Positions 11,198-42,788 of a DNA stretch of 64,000 nt are shown here, one piece after another. This stretch comes from Acidobacteriota bacterium (GTDB lineage: Bacteria; Acidobacteriota; Holophagae; Holophagales; Holophagaceae). Location of the stretch: contig JACPYP010000029.1 in assembly GCA_016195985.1 (NCBI GenBank), positions 1-64,000 of the forward strand, written 5' to 3'. A program made the position numbers and the translations under genes. The notes beneath the pieces were generated by a model. The model worked only from the letters and a program-made list of their open reading frames with translations. It searched no databases and had not been told where the DNA came from. Within the stretch, counting starts at the first letter, position 1. The number at the start of each line of letters is the position of its first letter.

Positions 11198-13252
11198 TCA
11201 GTGCTGCAACTGCCCGTCGACCAGCTCGCACAGGTCGATGGCTTCCATCTGGCCTTCGAGGCCCGCCACCTTGATGGCGTCCTCCATGTTAGTAAGGCAG
11301 AAGGGGCAGGCGGTGATGATCACATTGGCCCCGGCTTCCTTGGCCATGTTGACGCGGAGCACACCCATGCGCTGTTCTTCCTCGGGTTCGTAGAAGAGGC
11401 CCAGGCCGCCGCCGCCGCAGCAGAAGGAGCGGTCCTTGCAGGCGCCGGCCATCTCCACCCGCTTGAGGCCGGGGATGGCGTCGATGGCCACGCGGGGCGC
11501 GTCATACATGCCGTTGTGGCGGCCCAGGTAGCAGGGGTCGTGGTAGGTGTAGGTCTTGGAGGGATCGGCCAGAGGACTGAACTTGAGCTTGCCCTTCTCC
11601 ACGCCCGCGGCGATGACTTCGCTGACGTGCTCGACCGGCGGCAGGCCGGCGTAGTCGTTCTTCAGGGCGTTGTAGGCATGGGGATCGCTGGTGACGATGC
11701 GCTTGGCGCCCGTCTCGAGGATGGCCTCGGTGTTCTGCTCCTTCAGGCTCTGGAAGAGCATTTCCTCTCCGTAGCGCCGCACTTCGTGGCCGCTGTCCTT
11801 CTCCTCCTTGCCCAGGGCCAGGAAGTCCACGTCGGCCTTGGTGAGGATGCGGGCGGTGGCCTGCGCGATCTTCTGCATGCGGTCGTCGTAGGAGGTCATG
11901 CTGTCCACGAAGTAGAGGGTCTCGGCCTCGTCGCCCTTCTCGGCGAGCTTGACCTCGAAGCCTTCGCCCACGCCCGCGGCCCAGTCGGCCCGCTTCTTCT
12001 CCAGCTTGCCCCAGGGATTGCCGCGCTTTTCGAGGGCGCTGAGGGGCTTCTGCAGGGACTGGGGCACCATGCCCTCATCCACCATGCCGCGGCGCAGGTC
12101 CACGATCTTGTCGATGTACTCGATGCCGATGGGGCATTCCTCTTCGCAGGCCCCGCAGGTGGTGCAGGACCAGATCTCGTCTTCGCTGTAGATGCCGCCG
12201 ATGAGGGGTTCGGCTTCCGTCTTGTCCGTGCCGAACACGGGGTAGCGCTGGTAGAGGTGGTCGCGGCCCTTGATGCTGATGAAGCGGGGCGACAGGGGGC
12301 GCTTCACCCGGTTGGCGGGGCAGTTGTCCGAGCAGCGGCCGCAGTCGGCGCAGCTGTAGAAGTCCAGCTGGTGCTTCCAGGTGAAATCCTCGATCTTCTT
12401 CACGCCGAAGGAGGTCAGCTCGTCGAGGCCCTTGTCGTCCACGCCGTACTTCACGGGCTTCACGTGGCCGGGCTTCAGGCGCATGAAGTAGACGTTGAAG
12501 AGCGACGTGATCACGTGGAAGTGCTTGCCCATGGGCAGCAGGCACAGGAAGTAGAAGAACGTCAGGTCGTGGATGGCGTAGCTGGCGACGTTGATTCGCC
12601 CCAGGGCCGGAATGGAAAGCCCGGAGAAGAGGTGCTGGAAGCCCCAGGCCAGGGTGTAGGGCGTGGCGGTTCCATGGGTGCCCGCGGCCAGGAGGCTGCC
12701 CTCGAAGGCGCTTTCGGACAACAGCAGGGTGCCGATGAGGCCCAGCACCAGGATGGCTTCGCCGGTGTGATCCTTGCCCAGCTCCTTGGGAACCGCGTAG
12801 CGGGCGGGACGGACGACGCCGCGGCGGTAGGCCAGCACCACCACCGAGAGGAACACGGCCGTGGCGGCGTAGTCCTTCGCTATGTTGTAGACCACGCCCA
12901 GCTCTCCCCCGAAGCCCGGGAGCGTGAAGTGTTCCATGAAGCCCAGGAAGATGAGCTGGAAGGAACGCAGCCCCAGCACCAGGAAGCCCAGGAACAGCAC
13001 GATGTGCAGCACGCCCGCCAGCATGTAGCGCGGGTGGCGCCACTGGGCCAGCCAGACCTTGAGCACGAGGATCGTGCGCTCTCCGATGTTGTCGAAGCGG
13101 GCGTCCGGCGCGGCCTTCATCAGGGGCGCCATGCGGCGGACCATCATCCAGGCGAAGCAGGCGGCGCCCACCAGGGGAATCAGGAGGAACAGAAGGCGGG
13201 CGGGAACCCCCGCCAGCGAAGCCGTGGCGGGGGAAAAGGGCAGGGCGTGCAT
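11198..13252 (-). CDS. Membrane iron-sulfur Etf:quinone oxidoreductase
   Basis: 684 residues. The N-terminal third is a polytopic membrane domain of about six helices (around 18-38, 78-108, 128-145, 165-185, 200-220 and 228-255) with several histidines (HPRYML, GVLHIVL, IHDLTFF, GKHFHVITS) that could bind haem b as in NarI-like domains. Two [4Fe-4S] ferredoxin motifs follow: CADCGRCSDNCP (301-312) and CTTCGACEEECP (363-374). A CCG-type domain (HDPCYLGRHNGMYD, FCCGGGG, CPFC) closes the protein. This architecture is known as the EtfAB:menaquinone oxidoreductase of syntrophic and metal-reducing bacteria. Between acd and etfBA it would exchange electrons between Etf and the quinone pool. Confidence 0.9.
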   Translation of the reverse strand: MHALPFSPATASLAGVPARLLFLLIPLVGAACFAWMMVRRMAPLMKAAPDARFDNIGERTILVLKVWLAQWRHPRYMLAGVLHIVLFLGFLVLGLRSFQLIFLGFMEHFTLPGFGGELGVVYNIAKDYAATAVFLSVVVLAYRRGVVRPARYAVPKELGKDHTGEAILVLGLIGTLLLSESAFEGSLLAAGTHGTATPYTLAWGFQHLFSGLSIPALGRINVASYAIHDLTFFYFLCLLPMGKHFHVITSLFNVYFMRLKPGHVKPVKYGVDDKGLDELTSFGVKKIEDFTWKHQLDFYSCADCGRCSDNCPANRVKRPLSPRFISIKGRDHLYQRYPVFGTDKTEAEPLIGGIYSEDEIWSCTTCGACEEECPIGIEYIDKIVDLRRGMVDEGMVPQSLQKPLSALEKRGNPWGKLEKKRADWAAGVGEGFEVKLAEKGDEAETLYFVDSMTSYDDRMQKIAQATARILTKADVDFLALGKEEKDSGHEVRRYGEEMLFQSLKEQNTEAILETGAKRIVTSDPHAYNALKNDYAGLPPVEHVSEVIAAGVEKGKLKFSPLADPSKTYTYHDPCYLGRHNGMYDAPRVAIDAIPGLKRVEMAGACKDRSFCCGGGGLGLFYEPEEEQRMGVLRVNMAKEAGANVIITACPFCLTNMEDAIKVAGLEGQMEAIDLCELVDGQLQH

Positions 13253-37843: not shown

Positions 37844-39070
37844 TTAGGCCCGCAGCGCCGCCACGTGGCCGGCGCGGCGGTGCCGGCCCGCGGCGATCTC
37901 GCGCACGCCTTCGATGGCGGCCTGGATGTGCTCCTCGTGGTTGAAGGCGCCGATGCCGAAGCGCACGGCGCCGTGCAGGGCCGTGGTGCCCAGGTGGTCG
38001 TGCACCATGGGCGTGCAGTGCAGGCCCGTGCGGCAGGCGATGTTGTGGTCCACGTCCAGCATGGTGCCCACGTCCGCCGCTTCCAGCCCTTCCACATTGA
38101 GAGACAGCACGCTGATGCGCTGCTTGCCGGGAACGTCCTCGGCGCAGTAGAGGGTCACGCCCTCGATCCCGCGCAGGCCGTCCCGCAGCTGTGTCCAAAG
38201 GGCCATTTCGTGGTGGTGGATCGTTTCCAGACCCATGGCGTTGACCCAGGTCACCCCGGCGTTCAGGCCCGCGATGCCGGGCAGGTTCGGCGTGCCGTAC
38301 TCCATGCGGTAGGGATATTCGTCCAGGTGCTGGCGCTGGGCGCTCTTCACGCCGGTGCCGCCCGCGCGGGTGCGGCGGATCTCGACGCCCTCCCTGACGT
38401 ACATGCCGCCGATGCCCATGGGCCCCATGAGGCTCTTGTGCCCCGTGAAGCAGACGATGTCGGCGTTCAGTTCGTCCATCTTCACGGGCACCATGCCCGC
38501 GCTCTGGCTCACGTCCAGGATGAAGCGGATGCCCCGCTCGCGGCAGGCGGCGCCGATGGTGGCGGCGTCCTGCACGGTGCCGATGACGTTGGAGGCGTGG
38601 TTCAGGACGCAGGCCTTCGTCTCCGGCCGGAAGCGGCGGATCACCTCCTGGGGGTCCACGTAGCCCGTGACGTCGAAATCCACCCAGTCCACGGGGCTGC
38701 CCTCCTGCTCCAGCTTCCAGAGGGGACGCAGGGTGGCGTTGTGCTCCACGTGGGTGGTCACCACATGGTCTCCGGGCTGGAGGCTGCCCCAGATGGCCAG
38801 GTTGAGCGCGTCCGTGGAGTTGTAGCCGAAGACCAGCCGGTTGGGATCCGTGCCGCCGAAGAAGTCGCAGAGCAGCTTCCGGGTGTCGTCCACCAGGGCG
38901 CCCGCTTCCAGACAGAGGTCGAAGCCGCTGCGCCCCGGGTTGACGCCGGCGGAGCGGTAGAAGCGGTCCATGCCCTCGTAGACCTCCTGGGGCTTGGGGA
39001 AGGACGTGGCCCCGTTGTCGAGGTAGATCATCTTCACTTCGGGCGGGATGGGCAGGTGGAGCAGGCTCAT
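37844..39070 (-). CDS. Cysteine desulfurase (class V aminotransferase)
   Basis: 408 residues. PLP-binding Lys212 is in FTGHKSLMGPMGIGG. The persulfide-forming Cys352 is in CRTGLHCTP, equivalent to the RTGHHC of SufS-type enzymes; a second Cys346 lies nearby. The EGFP-like C-terminal VRFGIGAFNHEEHIQ is typical of the TIGR01977-type desulfurase family. The ATG at 39070 has GAGGTG upstream and overlaps the DsrK-like stop (ATGA). As last gene of the dsrC cluster it probably supplies cysteine sulfur as persulfide to DsrC. Selenocysteine lyase activity is an alternative for this family. Confidence 0.88.
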   Translation of the reverse strand: MSLLHLPIPPEVKMIYLDNGATSFPKPQEVYEGMDRFYRSAGVNPGRSGFDLCLEAGALVDDTRKLLCDFFGGTDPNRLVFGYNSTDALNLAIWGSLQPGDHVVTTHVEHNATLRPLWKLEQEGSPVDWVDFDVTGYVDPQEVIRRFRPETKACVLNHASNVIGTVQDAATIGAACRERGIRFILDVSQSAGMVPVKMDELNADIVCFTGHKSLMGPMGIGGMYVREGVEIRRTRAGGTGVKSAQRQHLDEYPYRMEYGTPNLPGIAGLNAGVTWVNAMGLETIHHHEMALWTQLRDGLRGIEGVTLYCAEDVPGKQRISVLSLNVEGLEAADVGTMLDVDHNIACRTGLHCTPMVHDHLGTTALHGAVRFGIGAFNHEEHIQAAIEGVREIAAGRHRRAGHVAALRA

Positions 39071-40410
39071 GGGAGCACCTCTGAATGCGTGGGTACGATG
39101 AGGGCCGCGGCCACCAGTTCCGCCACGGTCTTGATCTGGACTTTCAGCTGGTATTCCTTGTTCAGCTCGCTGAGCTGATCGATGCAGTTGTGGCAGGGCG
39201 CGGCCACCACCTTGGCTCCGGTGGCGCGGATCTGGTCCGCCTTCTTCTTGCCCGCGGCCAAGCGCCGGTTCCGGTAGCGGCTCATGGCCAGCTGGCCTCC
39301 GCCTCCGCCGCAGCAGTAGTTCTCCACGCCGTGGGGCGCCATCTCCACCAAGTTGGCCACGGCGCGCCGCAGCACCCGGCGCTGGGGTTCGGAAATGCCG
39401 CCGTGGCGCACCAGGTTGCAGGGATCGTGCAGGGTAACGGGTTCCTGGTTCCGGGCGGAATCCACGTGGATGCGACCTTCGTTCAGGTAGCCGTCCATGA
39501 GTTCCAGGATGCTCACCACGGGGAAGGGGAAGCGCTGCTTGAGCCACTCGGGCCCCATCCACCGGGCGCTTTGGTAGCCGTGGCCGCATTCGCCGATGAC
39601 CAGCACCTGGCAGCCCAGGCGCGTCATGGCGTCCGTGAGGTTCTTCACGATGGCCGCGGCCTGGTCGTCCTCGCAGGTGAAGAGGGCGTAATTGGTGAGA
39701 TCCCACCCGCCGTCACTGGCCAGGGTCCAGTCCTCGCCCGCCGCCCAGAAGACCTTGGCGCTGGCCTGGAGAGAGAGCGGAAAGAACTTGGCCTCGCGGG
39801 GATTCACCGTGAAGAGGCAGCGGGCCCCCTGCTTGTCGAGGGGGATGCGGGCCTCCGGATCGCCCGTGTCGGCCTGCAGCTCCTCCTCCATCCACTCCAC
39901 GGTCTCGACCCACTCTTCGCGCTCGATGGCCATGTTGTTACCGTGCTGCAGGCTGTTCTCGACGGTGGCCTGCAGGTCCTCGGGCACCAGGCCCATGGCG
40001 CCCAGGGCGCGCCGCGCCGCCCGGAACAGGGCGGGCAGGGGGATGCCGATGGTGCAGTTCATGGAGCAGCGGCCGCAGAGGGTGCAGCGGCCGAACACCG
40101 CATCCACCCAGGCTCGGGCCATGTCGCGGTCGAAGCGCTTCGCTCCCACCAGGCCCGGCGCGAGCCGGCCCATGGTGGTGAAGTGCGCCTTGAACACCGA
40201 GGCGATGTGATCCAGCTTGCGGCCAGGCACGTTCTCCAGCTCGGGTTCGGTGCGATGGTAGTGGCAGCCCCCGGCGCAGAGGCCGCAGCGCACGCAGGCG
40301 TTCAGATAGCTGGCCTCCGCCTCCTTCAGGCCGCCCCGGAATACCTCCAGGCCGCGCGCGTAGTCCGCGTCCGTGAGGGTATCCAGCTTCTGCTCCAGCT
40401 CAGTGGACAT
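39067..40410 (-). CDS. DsrK/HdrD-like iron-sulfur oxidoreductase
   Basis: 447 residues. Two [4Fe-4S] motifs: CVRCGLCAGGC (Cys39, 42, 45, 49) and CTLCGRCSMNC (Cys109, 112, 115, 119). The second lacks the usual following Pro. The C-terminal part carries GECGHGY and a CCG domain (HDPCNLVRHGG, YCCGGGGG at 365-371, CHNC at 406-409), the non-cubane [4Fe-4S] site that cleaves disulfides in HdrB/HdrD and DsrK. It overlaps the membrane subunit gene by 11 bp. With DsrC encoded in the same operon, the likely substrate is a DsrC disulfide or trisulfide, reduced with quinol electrons. Confidence 0.88.
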   Translation of the reverse strand: MSTELEQKLDTLTDADYARGLEVFRGGLKEAEASYLNACVRCGLCAGGCHYHRTEPELENVPGRKLDHIASVFKAHFTTMGRLAPGLVGAKRFDRDMARAWVDAVFGRCTLCGRCSMNCTIGIPLPALFRAARRALGAMGLVPEDLQATVENSLQHGNNMAIEREEWVETVEWMEEELQADTGDPEARIPLDKQGARCLFTVNPREAKFFPLSLQASAKVFWAAGEDWTLASDGGWDLTNYALFTCEDDQAAAIVKNLTDAMTRLGCQVLVIGECGHGYQSARWMGPEWLKQRFPFPVVSILELMDGYLNEGRIHVDSARNQEPVTLHDPCNLVRHGGISEPQRRVLRRAVANLVEMAPHGVENYCCGGGGGQLAMSRYRNRRLAAGKKKADQIRATGAKVVAAPCHNCIDQLSELNKEYQLKVQIKTVAELVAAALIVPTHSEVLP

Positions 40411-41029
40411 GGGATCCCCCCGGGGGAAACACCCCGCGCCGCCCGAAGAAGGCCCCGAAATGGGACCGGGCCATGAAGAAGAAGAGGCAGTGGCGGATCT
40501 TGCCGAGGGGCGCATAGAACAGCAGCAGGATCGCGCTCAGCAGCCAGGCCTGGCCGGGCGACACCAGGGCCAGGGCCACAAAGGCCGTGGCCAGCAGGTT
40601 CGACACGAAGTCATCGGGACGGGACAGGCCGCGCAGTTCCGCCTTCAGAAGGCGCTTCAACAACAGGCCCAATCCCCCCATCGCGCCCAGTGCCAGCAAG
40701 GCCCGGGCACCCAGCCAGAGCGACCGGGGCAGCTCGAATCCCGCCAGGCTCAGCGCGAGCAGCGCGAAGGCCGTGAAGATCCCCCCATGGAAGGCCAGGC
40801 CCAGCCCGTACGAGGGCAGGTGCTCGCGCACGCTCTCCTTGGCGCCGGGGCTCATGGCGCCGGTGAAGGCGTAGCGGATGCCCGCGGCCGGATCACCCGC
40901 CGCGGCGGCGAAGGGCTGGCGCGAGCCGAAGGCCCGCGCCCGGGCCCGCAGCACGAGCAGGCCTGCCACGGCCCAGACCCCGGCCGCGACCACGGCCGTG
41001 CCGAGCGGGGTGAAAAGCTGGTTCGGCAC
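40400..41029 (-). CDS. DsrM/NarI-like membrane cytochrome b subunit
   Basis: 209 residues. The GTG start at 41029 has GGAGG 4 nt upstream. About five membrane helices are seen (around 8-28, 78-98, 104-122, 145-162 and 165-182). Histidines at the membrane faces (REHLPSYGLGLAFHGG, KIRHCLFFFMARSHFG) could ligate haem b. The end APLGKIRHCLFFF then FGRRGVFP closely resembles DsrM/HmcE-type quinol-oxidising subunits. It would pass electrons between the quinone pool and the iron-sulfur partner encoded next. Confidence 0.8.
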   Translation of the reverse strand: MPNQLFTPLGTAVVAAGVWAVAGLLVLRARARAFGSRQPFAAAAGDPAAGIRYAFTGAMSPGAKESVREHLPSYGLGLAFHGGIFTAFALLALSLAGFELPRSLWLGARALLALGAMGGLGLLLKRLLKAELRGLSRPDDFVSNLLATAFVALALVSPGQAWLLSAILLLFYAPLGKIRHCLFFFMARSHFGAFFGRRGVFPPGGSHVH

Positions 41030-41037
41030 GGGGCCTC

Positions 41038-41358
41038 CTACACGCAGCCGTCAGGCTTGGGCAGGCCCGCCAGCTTGCAGGCGCCCTTGGCGGGACCGCT
41101 GGGGAAGAGTTCGTAGATGCGCTGGAGACGCAGGCCCGTGGCCTTGCAGACGGCGCGCACCATGGGGGCGCCCTGCTTCTCCTCGAAGTGGCCGCGGATG
41201 AAGCGGATCACGGACCAGTGCTCCTCGGTCAAAGCCTCGAGCCCCTCCTCCGCCTGGGCCAGCGCCAGGGCCAGTTCCTCGTTCCAGATCCCCGGATCCA
41301 CCAGAAATCCTTCTTCGTTCAGGGCCACCGCTTGTCCATGGAACATCAGGCCGCTCAT
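41038..41358 (-). CDS. dsrC: DsrC/TusE-family sulfur carrier protein
   Basis: 106 residues. It ends in CKLAGLPKPDGCV with both redox cysteines, Cys94 and Cys105, separated by ten residues as in true DsrC, not only the single Cys of TusE-type members. EEHWSVIRFIRGHFEEKQGA and FPSGPAKGACK are family hallmarks. The ATG at 41358 follows GGAGGG; an ATG 4 nt upstream is in another frame. It is the first gene of the cluster. It would carry sulfur as a persulfide or trisulfide on the two cysteines and be recycled by the DsrMK-like pair. No dsrAB sulfite reductase gene is in the window. Confidence 0.93.
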   Translation of the reverse strand: MSGLMFHGQAVALNEEGFLVDPGIWNEELALALAQAEEGLEALTEEHWSVIRFIRGHFEEKQGAPMVRAVCKATGLRLQRIYELFPSGPAKGACKLAGLPKPDGCV

Positions 41359-41399
41359 GCATCCCTCCGGAGCCGCATCCCGCGCGGCCAGCAACGGGT

Positions 41400-41435
41400 T
41401 TGGATTTTGTGTGAATGGAAACTAGAATTGTGTGC
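41400..41435 (+). promoter_or_regulatory. Leaderless sigma-70 promoter with MocR-type direct repeats
   Basis: TTGGAT (41400-41405), a 17-bp spacer and TAGAAT (41423-41428). The ATG at 41436 lies 7 nt after the -10, so transcription would begin at or next to the start codon. TTGTGTG occurs twice in the same orientation, at 41407-41413 and 41428-41434, 21 bp apart (two helical turns). MocR/GabR-type proteins bind such direct repeats. The copies overlap the spacer and -10, and also lie in the gap to the divergent dsrC gene. Confidence 0.7.
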
Positions 41436-42788
41436 ATGACAATCTGGGTGCCCGACCTTTCGCACGCCTCCGGCCCCACCTACCTGGCCGTGGCGGATGC
41501 CATCGGAACCGCGGTACGGCTGGGTCAGCTGCGGCCCGGCGACCAGCTCCCCACCCACCGTTCCTTAGCCGATCTCCTGGGTGTGAATGTGAGCACCGTC
41601 ACACGCTCCTACCGGGAAGCGGCCCGCCGCCTCCTGGTGGGCGGCGAGGTGGGACGGGGCACCTACGTGCTGGGCCTGGCCTCGGAAGCAGCCCTCTTCG
41701 CGCTGCAGAACCGCCCCGAGGGCGGCGTCATCGACCTCTCCACCAACCGCCCGCCGGTGGGCCTGGCCGAAGGCGATCTGGGGGTGGGCCTCGCCAACCT
41801 GGGCTGGAGCGAGGGGGGCCGCTTCCTCGACTACCCGGCCCCCGGCGACACGCGCCTCCACCGCGAGGCCGCCACCGCCTGGCTGAAGCGCCGCGGCCTG
41901 AAGGCCGAAGCCGAGCACCTGCTGATCTGCGCCGGGGCCCAGCACGCCATGGACACGGCCCTCAGTCTGCTGGACGAGCACCGGGATCTGGCCTGCGAAT
42001 CCCTGGTCTACCCCGGGCTGAAGGCCCTGGCCCGCCAGAACCGGAGGCGCCTGCATCCCATGGGCATGGACCGGGAGGGGGTGCTGCCCTCGGCCCTGGA
42101 AGCCGCCGCCAAGGCGGGTCTGCGGGTGGCCGTGCTCTCTCCCACGCTGAACAATCCCACCACCGCCACCATGAGCCTGGGCCGCCGCGAACGCCTCGTG
42201 GCCATCGCCCGGAAGCATGATCTGCTCCTGGTCGAGGAGGATGTCTACGGCCTGCTGCCCGAGGACGCGCCGCCGCCCTTGGCCGCCCTGGCGCCGGAGC
42301 GGGTGCTCTACGTGACGGGCCTCTCCAAGACCGTGGCCGCGGGCCTGCGCCTGGGCTACCTGCTCCTGCCGCCCCCGCTGCGCACCCGCGCCCGGGACGC
42401 GGAGCACCACACGACGTGGTATGTCTCGCCCATGAGCATGGCCCTGGGCACGGCCTGGATCGAGGACGGCACCGCCTGGCGCCGCCTCCTCACCCAGCGC
42501 AAGGAGCTGGCCGCCCGGCACCGGCTCTGCGCCCAGGGGCTGCGGAGCCTCGCCTGGCGCGGCGAGGCCCACTGCCCCCACATCTGGCTGCCGGCGCCGC
42601 CCGGGGGCCAGGAACGCTTCAGGCGGCGCGCCCTGGAGGCGGGCGTGGTGGTGGTGTCCTCGGATGTCTTCGCCGCCACCCGGGCCGTGCAGGAACCGGG
42701 CATCCGCGTTTCCATCGGCGCCGCTCCGGACCGGGCCACCCTGGCCCAGGGACTGGCCCGCCTGGAGGGCCTGAACGCCCTTGCCTAA
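41436..42788 (+). CDS. MocR/GabR-type regulator: GntR HTH fused to aminotransferase
   Basis: 450 residues. Residues 10-75 are a GntR-type winged helix (AVRLGQLRPGDQLPTHRSLA, LLGVNVSTVTRSYREA). The rest is a class I aminotransferase fold with the PLP Lys in VTGLSKTVAAGLRLGYLL and NNPTTATMS. The start at 41436 (MTIWVPDLSHASGPTYLAVA) fits the family and the leaderless promoter; an upstream in-frame ATG at 41415 would lie inside the promoter. It is divergent from dsrC across 77 bp, so it probably autoregulates and may control the sulfur cluster. It ends 4 bp from aguB. Confidence 0.92.
   Translation: MTIWVPDLSHASGPTYLAVADAIGTAVRLGQLRPGDQLPTHRSLADLLGVNVSTVTRSYREAARRLLVGGEVGRGTYVLGLASEAALFALQNRPEGGVIDLSTNRPPVGLAEGDLGVGLANLGWSEGGRFLDYPAPGDTRLHREAATAWLKRRGLKAEAEHLLICAGAQHAMDTALSLLDEHRDLACESLVYPGLKALARQNRRRLHPMGMDREGVLPSALEAAAKAGLRVAVLSPTLNNPTTATMSLGRRERLVAIARKHDLLLVEEDVYGLLPEDAPPPLAALAPERVLYVTGLSKTVAAGLRLGYLLLPPPLRTRARDAEHHTTWYVSPMSMALGTAWIEDGTAWRRLLTQRKELAARHRLCAQGLRSLAWRGEAHCPHIWLPAPPGGQERFRRRALEAGVVVVSSDVFAATRAVQEPGIRVSIGAAPDRATLAQGLARLEGLNALA

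Follow-up and report, generated by a model that had tools for sequence, protein, structure and literature searches.

A window of 64,000 nucleotides from the start of contig JACPYP010000029.1 (Acidobacteriota bacterium, family Holophagaceae) carries four reverse-strand genes arranged head to tail, which encode a DsrC/TusE-family protein, a NarI-like membrane subunit, a CCG iron-sulfur (FeS) protein and a cysteine desulfurase (Csd). The gene of a MocR-type regulator runs divergently from dsrC. The genome to which the window belongs (G000) is a 98.3% complete draft of 4.26 Mb in 33 contigs. The features of the locus are the following, with residues numbered from the start codon and PLP standing for pyridoxal 5'-phosphate:

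41358 to 41038, reverse strand: dsrC, ATG start, DsrC/TusE-family protein of 106 amino acids with the tail -KPDGCV
41029 to 40400, reverse strand: gene of the NarI-like membrane subunit, GTG start, five long helices and two invariant histidines
40410 to 39067, reverse strand: gene of the CCG FeS protein, ATG start, two [4Fe-4S] motifs and a CCG domain
39070 to 37844, reverse strand: csd, ATG start, TIGR01977 cysteine desulfurase with the PLP lysine Lys212, the catalytic Cys352 and an extra Cys346
41415 to 42788, forward strand: gene of the MocR-type regulator (GntR and aminotransferase domains), likelier start the ATG at 41436
41359 to 41435: control region shared by dsrC and mocR, 77 bp, containing GCACACAAT and TCACACAAA as direct repeats with a spacing of 21 bp

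A gap of 8 bp separates dsrC from the membrane gene, which overlaps the FeS gene by 11 bp, and the FeS gene overlaps csd by 4 bp. Both the coordinates and the family scores bear out the preliminary description of this DNA, which had proposed an operon of these four genes, overlapping or within 10 bp of each other and divergent from a MocR gene. The conservation of the four-gene set across relatives shows that it is no accident. What is new here is a conserved DsrC module with a linked cysteine desulfurase and, where searched, no DsrAB. This architecture is solid, while its chemistry and direction are what we infer. Among open-licence papers, no description of a dsrC-csd-CCG operon was found. 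The nearest published case, as presented in a passage of PMC10579422, is a syntrophic metagenome-assembled genome that carries dsrC together with asrAB and also expresses a cysteine desulfurase.

The DsrC of the window scores 116 bits against PF04358 (cut-off 24.9) and 101.2 bits against TIGR03342 (cut-off 53.5). Numbered from the ATG at 41358, it has the two redox cysteines that had been noted earlier, Cys94 (CysB) and the penultimate Cys105 (CysA), and additionally Cys71. In the alignment, CysA is present in 45 of 45 rows, CysB in 44 of 45 and Cys71 in 45 of 45. As a mark of the module, Cys71 was dropped: it is found in all 45 module rows and in none of five solved DsrCs, but also in 24 of 30 DsrCs from comparison genomes. 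The last five residues are PDGCV in all 52 distinct sequences that are linked to Csd or to the module. For this count duplicates were removed, so that most family members were counted from short stretches; Csd was seen in the stretch for 31 of the 52, and the other 21 come from stretches that are too short or cut (in L174 no Csd was seen). The other 26 tails are PTGCV (23), PKSCL (2) and PKGCI (1). One DsrC was read per dsrA-bearing comparison genome (L230, L231, L236, L238 and L245), and all end in PTGCV; G311 and G196 hold further, unread copies. The five solved DsrC sequences displayed also end in PTGCV, and two genomes of the same class but of other families (G004 and G006) have a DsrC with the TusE-like tail -PKSCL. 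The tail, -PDGCV or -PTGCV, offers a simple means to separate the DsrC of the module from the DsrAB-type protein.

The presence of CysB is at odds with what has been published on this family. According to a passage of PMC3397948, CysB is nearly always missing from a DsrC/TusE protein when the organism has no DsrAB, and the second cysteine is restricted to DsrAB bearers except in Methylococcaceae, Marinobacter and Lawsonia. Both redox cysteines are nonetheless found in 37 of the 38 module genomes that have a DsrC in hand and no dsrA over the cut-off (the exception is G152), which runs counter to this published rule. These DsrCs are accompanied by a membrane CCG pair and mostly also by a linked Csd.

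The search for dsrA covered 45 genomes, selected because they have either a module-type FeS protein or a family DsrC, and none has a dsrA over the cut-off; weak matches below it occur in G142 and G246. Five of these genomes (G125, G137, G155, G267 and G398) are without inspection of the neighborhood, G328 has no DsrC and Csd beside the FeS gene, G266 is cut before dsrC, and 38 have a DsrC in hand. Conversely, dsrA is over the cut-off in four of five comparison genomes with weaker, DsrK-type FeS matches, and split in two pieces in the fifth. An apparent TAG inside the dsrA of three comparison genomes turned out to be the ordinary terminal stop. ATP-sulfurylase (Sat) was found in none of 25 genomes searched, G000 included. 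G000 has no dsrA match and a single NIR_SIR gene, which looks like an assimilatory cysI from its place in a cluster of cysG, a SirC-like gene, cysI, cysH, cysD and cysN (named by eye, without a family scan). Among DsrC-bearing genomes in a single contig, NIR_SIR matches are absent from G072, G073 and G077, and G025 and G040 have one each. The absence of dsrAB and sat first noted around the operon thus holds genome-wide for dsrA over the cut-off and for ATP-sulfurylase, and an ordinary sulfate reducer with dsrAB, sat and apr in its genome was not found (apr was not searched). As a separate observation, an assimilatory-looking cluster with cysDN lies at L137 (G000:C30:12000-24000), and a NIR_SIR match is absent in 36 of 47 searched genomes of the genus.

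G000 likewise has no match to TusA (PF01206) or DsrE/TusBCD (PF02635), and no SelD over the cut-off. TusA occurs in 17 of the 45 module genomes and SelD over the cut-off in 23 of them, while DsrE occurs in 9 of 25 genomes; each of the three is found in 5 of the 20 DsrC-bearing genomes of the family.

Within the class, DsrC (PF04358) was found in 22 of 93 genomes, 20 of which are among the 77 genomes of the family of the window. Of these 20 family loci, 19 have dsrC followed by the membrane and FeS genes, and 17 continue with csd on that contig. The three loci without csd (G067, G068 and G071) reach a contig edge; in G068 the remaining FeS and csd genes, and in G067 a partial csd, lie on another contig. 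Orthologues of Csd (442-859 bits) are present in 19 of the 20 DsrC-bearing family genomes and in none of five DsrC-free ones, where the best match reaches at most 121 bits. The operon is also carried by the locus of Geothrix limicola Red804 (L068, contig NZ_BSDE01000003.1). Scanning contigs with the FeS alignment yielded 27 loci, including many family contigs, with the four genes in order in 21 and the other 6 cut by the contig end. Those outside the family are titled Acidobacteria, Thermoanaerobaculaceae, Eisenbacteria, Krumholzibacteriia, Latescibacterota, Gemmatimonas or Fibrobacter, or bear no phylum. The FeS rows of Gemmatimonas, Fibrobacter and Latescibacterota are very close in the tree, and some of these bins may be mislabelled. 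L081 (titled 'Deltaproteobacteria') and L084 (titled 'Bacillota') belong to the family of the window (G067 and G068) and were not counted as other phyla.

Across the phylum, FeS matches at E <= 1e-40 occur in 77 of 396 genomes. Thirty stretches were inspected: 16 contain DsrC, membrane, FeS and Csd genes, four are partial (L174, L177, L178 and L185), and the remaining ten have neither DsrC nor Csd, with an FeS identity of at most 43% in all of them. The orientation of csd relative to dsrC varies, being the same strand in L180, convergent in, for example, L175, L176 and L181, and divergent in L189. The gene order varies too, with dsrC after the FeS gene in L192 and L202, and dsrC and csd before the membrane/FeS pair in L198. 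The linkage of dsrC and csd has therefore persisted through rearrangement and is not mere inertia. In a tree of 65 FeS rows, the module forms a clade of 46 (100/97), of which 39 have DsrC and Csd in the stretch, in several gene orders, so that the gene set is conserved in relatives, as the preliminary description had proposed to check. Of the other seven clade rows, five (L083, L087, L093, L177 and L185) are cut off by the end of a contig, and L174 and L178 are not. Matches with a stop or shorter than 300 letters (L181 among them) were dropped from the tree, and L031, L033, L034, L084 and L092 are not included. DsrC is also associated with Csd in L192, L198 and L202, where the membrane/FeS pair falls in a different clade, which supports the mechanism proposed below. 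In a Csd tree without an outgroup, and with L202 left out for a stop in its match, L192 and L198 lie inside a branch of 38 rows (100/99) that excludes L182, L183 and L188. In five further genomes (L237, L241 and L246-L248) dsrC and csd stand tail to tail, with no FeS gene in their 3.3-kb stretch. A fifth conserved gene was sought across phyla and none was seen, with CGGC-domain, PALP, TPR and other neighbors recurring at few loci only. The CGGC-domain protein adjoins the module in separate lineages (L032:6039-6551, L186:4576-5019 and L198:4898-5416; PF08821 was scanned in L032 only).

Csd scores 390.9 bits against TIGR01977 (cut-off 377), and its runner-up model is the selenocysteine lyase SclA with 289.8 bits, below the cut-off of 525. 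The PLP lysine is present in 47 of 47 alignment rows, the catalytic cysteine in 46 of 46 and the extra cysteine in 39 of 47. A score over the cut-off together with the PLP lysine and the active cysteine identifies it as a predicted cysteine desulfurase, as had been proposed. Separately, Csd-related matches with one in-frame TGA occur at G077:C1:3440558-3441691 and in G078 (C11:37152-37856); that of G077 adjoins selD and TusA- and DsrE-domain matches, and could thus represent a selenoprotein encoded in a selenium gene cluster.

No Pfam family matches the membrane protein, which reaches only 30 bits with the HmcE model (cut-off 275). His80 and His179 (alignment-row numbers; counted from the GTG they are one higher) are invariant in 53 of 53 rows and would fit a bis-histidine heme. 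Its AlphaFold2 model has a pLDDT (predicted local distance difference test) of 93.8. The best Foldseek match is NarI with an E-value of 0.025, and none falls under 0.001. With VIA, NarI is matched at Z 12.2-12.5 over 152-162 residues with a root-mean-square deviation (rmsd) of 4.8-5.4, where Z values under about 13 may reflect the mere common arrangement of helices. EtfD is the ninth match, behind eight NarI chains, at Z 9.6 over 190 residues. The models are only suggestive of a NarI-like fold for this helical protein.

The FeS protein matches CCG with 47 bits and Fer4_8 with 35.2 bits, both over the cut-off, and stays under the cut-off of the more specific models: HmcF 292 of 750 bits, TmcB 288 of 735 and DsrK (NF045796) 217 of 400. 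It contains two [4Fe-4S] motifs and one complete C-X34-CC-X38-C-X2-C motif, only the second of the two CCG motifs being complete. In the alignment of 53 rows, seven ferredoxin-type cysteines and C330, C365, C366, C405 and C408 (alignment-row numbers) are invariant, and the eighth ferredoxin-type cysteine nearly so. Its model (pLDDT 94.1) has EtfD as top match, with Z 27.1 over 387 residues and rmsd 2.8, and the C-terminal part resembles HdrB (Z 18.7-19.7 over 236-237 residues). Judged by these models, the pair resembles a membrane CCG oxidoreductase divided between two proteins, and with its histidine pair, complete CCG site and predicted folds it fits electron transfer from quinone to the CCG site. 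Two related observations concern other FeS proteins: a second, distant CCG protein is found in the window at 11240-11638 (a frame of 719 amino acids, 51.2 bits against the FeS profile), and related FeS proteins of dsrA-bearing genomes include a response-regulator domain (L191:11945-13693 and L194:6221-7972), the gene being followed in L194 by one for a histidine kinase.

Several known systems resemble the module. A two-cysteine DsrC, a membrane cytochrome b and a CCG FeS protein are also the parts of DsrMKJOP/DsrC in sulfate and sulfite reducers. However, the module falls short of the DsrK cut-off, has no dsrA over the cut-off and carries the tail -PDGCV instead of -PTGCV, and in G428 and G311 the FeS rows at 7-12 kb from dsrA, read as DsrK-type, fall far outside its clade. 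The names DsrM and DsrK given in the preliminary description were right about the kinds of parts, a membrane and a CCG FeS protein, and wrong about the family, by score as well as by tree. By sequence scores, the pair appears nearer to HmcEF/TmcCB of Desulfovibrio, whose models give the top FeS family scores and where DsrC is a proposed partner of Tmc, yet it is far below those cut-offs too, and csd and dsrC belong to its operon. No gene with at least two CXXCH motifs, as in a multiheme cytochrome, was seen among 22 crudely called genes at positions 27001-55000 of the window. The IscS-TusA-TusBCD-TusE relay of Escherichia coli also joins a cysteine desulfurase to a DsrC/TusE-family protein, but G000 lacks TusA and DsrE-family matches, and the module has two redox cysteines and a membrane redox partner. 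EtfD, which combines a membrane and a CCG part, is a single chain that takes electrons from ETF, whereas the module has two genes and DsrC as neighbor (ETF genes were not searched). HdrDE of methanogens couples a membrane carrier through a cytochrome b to CCG disulfide chemistry. The FeS model matches the HdrB fold; the substrate of the module would be DsrC, and only one of its CCG motifs is complete.

At slightly less than even odds (about 0.45), we propose that the locus encodes a DsrC redox module that is complete in itself, with its own Csd instead of DsrAB. Csd would take sulfur off cysteine as an enzyme persulfide and pass it straight to Cys105 of DsrC; Cys94 would then attack the Cys105 persulfide, releasing hydrogen sulfide (H2S) and leaving a DsrC disulfide; and the CCG FeS protein would reduce this disulfide with electrons drawn from menaquinol (MQH2) through the NarI-like subunit. 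The net reaction would be cysteine + MQH2 -> alanine + H2S + MQ (menaquinone). The proposal rests on the gene set and its conservation, the conserved catalytic and redox residues, the predicted folds and the gene absences in G000; from these we infer that sulfur is transferred, that a DsrC disulfide forms, that a quinone takes part, which way the electrons flow and that H2S is the product. Direct transfer from Csd to DsrC is the simplest route in G000 because it has no TusA or DsrE match. Once loaded, DsrC could be reduced by menaquinol with release of H2S, deliver its sulfur to an acceptor, or be oxidized into the quinone pool. A passage of PMC3397948 reports that DsrC of Allochromatium vinosum is persulfurated solely at the penultimate cysteine after incubation with IscS and cysteine or with sulfide, the effective donor being unspecified there. 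For Tmc, an electron route to DsrC is proposed in PMC4215793, where the relevant passage suggests DsrC or ferredoxin as partners, and a passage of PMC10553843 likewise proposes electron delivery from Tmc to DsrC; this bears on the module because TmcB is near its FeS protein. The earlier idea of a quinol-driven DsrC cycle fed by a desulfurase thus gains from the missing DsrA and Sat, the conserved gene set, the desulfurase as natural sulfur donor and a pair suited to quinone-to-CCG transfer, but its pair is not DsrMK. More tentatively, cysteine sulfur, as the desulfurase persulfide, might be the terminal oxidant of a menaquinol:DsrC oxidoreductase, in a respiration to H2S or in a thiol redox reset via the membrane. 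This would be an energy metabolism based on DsrC but free of sulfite reductase, and a third route to loaded DsrC, besides DsrAB and TusA/DsrEFH.

Several points weigh against this proposal. It is built on gene content, conserved residues and predicted folds. Menaquinol reduces thiol disulfides only weakly, so that electron flow toward DsrC may have to be driven. EtfD, which heads the matches of the FeS model, is an ETF:menaquinone enzyme, with menaquinone as the expected end of its electron flow. CysB is replaced by alanine in L189 (G152) despite a complete gene set. L174 has no Csd within the inspected stretch, which does not reach the end of its contig, and L178 is without DsrC and Csd. In the 17 of 45 module genomes with TusA, a relay may operate instead. 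The dsrA search excludes the other-phylum records outside the genome set and the genomes of L237, L241 and L246-L248.

A relay of this kind is unlikely. In it, Csd would load DsrC, which would hand sulfane sulfur on to an acceptor in biosynthesis (for tRNA thiolation or for the assembly of Fe-S clusters or cofactors), and the role of the membrane pair would be confined to maintaining DsrC in the reduced state or to feeding electrons at the acceptor. In its favor are the homology of DsrC to TusE, those TusA matches and the known E. coli relay with TusE as end point, which a passage of PMC3397948 describes. Against it, 44 of 45 rows retain CysB, whose loss without DsrAB is nearly universal according to the same source. 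G000 lacks TusA and DsrE matches, no acceptor gene is conserved beside the module, and a patchy occurrence (DsrC in 20 of 77 family genomes) is ill suited to a housekeeping relay. We consider it quite doubtful that electrons flow the other way, with the CCG protein oxidizing the thiols of Csd-loaded DsrC and delivering electrons to the menaquinone pool, as is supposed for DsrMK of sulfur oxidizers and for EtfD with ETF. EtfD indeed ranks first for the FeS model and, after the NarI chains, also for the membrane model, and a reverse function of DsrMK is proposed for cable bacteria in a passage of PMC13293266; but no DsrAB was found that could oxidize a DsrC trisulfide, and the reaction would yield a disulfide without an obvious partner.

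A selenium-related module with Csd as selenocysteine lyase is very improbable: SclA as second-best Csd model and SelD in 23 of 45 module genomes point toward it, but the SclA score is well below its cut-off, and SelD over the cut-off is confined to 5 of the 20 DsrC-bearing family genomes and missing from G000. Scarcely credible, finally, is the possibility that the pair is the usual DsrMK of an organism that reduces sulfate or sulfite and has its dsrAB elsewhere in the genome. The parts are of the same kind and the draft genome is not closed, but against it stand the lack of ATP-sulfurylase in 25 genomes and of dsrA over the cut-off in 45, the apparent cysG-cysI-cysH-cysDN setting of the sole NIR_SIR gene of G000, and the single-contig genomes G072, G073 and G077, which have DsrC and no NIR_SIR match (G025 and G040 have one each).

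The two-cysteine DsrC has hitherto been tied to DsrAB-based sulfur respiration. If the self-contained module with Csd in place of DsrAB operates as proposed, DsrC would be a more general carrier connecting organic sulfur to the quinone pool. In that case, surveys that take dsrC and dsrMK-like genes as sufficient evidence of sulfite or sulfate reduction would give wrong counts.

The MocR protein combines GntR and Aminotran_1_2 domains and scores 398.5 bits with the EhuR model, below its cut-off of 480. Its gene is divergent from dsrC in 14 of the 20 family loci and outside the family at only four acidobacterial loci (L074, L076, L078 and L082); it is therefore not part of the core module. In 15 of 17 dsrC-mocR intergenic regions, boxes resembling GCACACAAT and CACACA are spaced by exactly 21 bp, and the first box, as a degenerate pattern, is present in all 17; L033, which also has MocR, is outside this set, and the counts are raw, without a shuffled control. 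A spacing of two helical turns between direct repeats is in keeping with MocR regulators, and the repeats of the window are a candidate MocR operator. The earlier suggestion that MocR could sense an amino-acid or PLP signal tied to this chemistry has gained a candidate site in the shared region, although the regulator itself is not in the core. At L202:3328-5729, a response regulator and histidine kinase pair lies directly upstream of the membrane, FeS and DsrC genes, at the place that MocR takes in the family loci.

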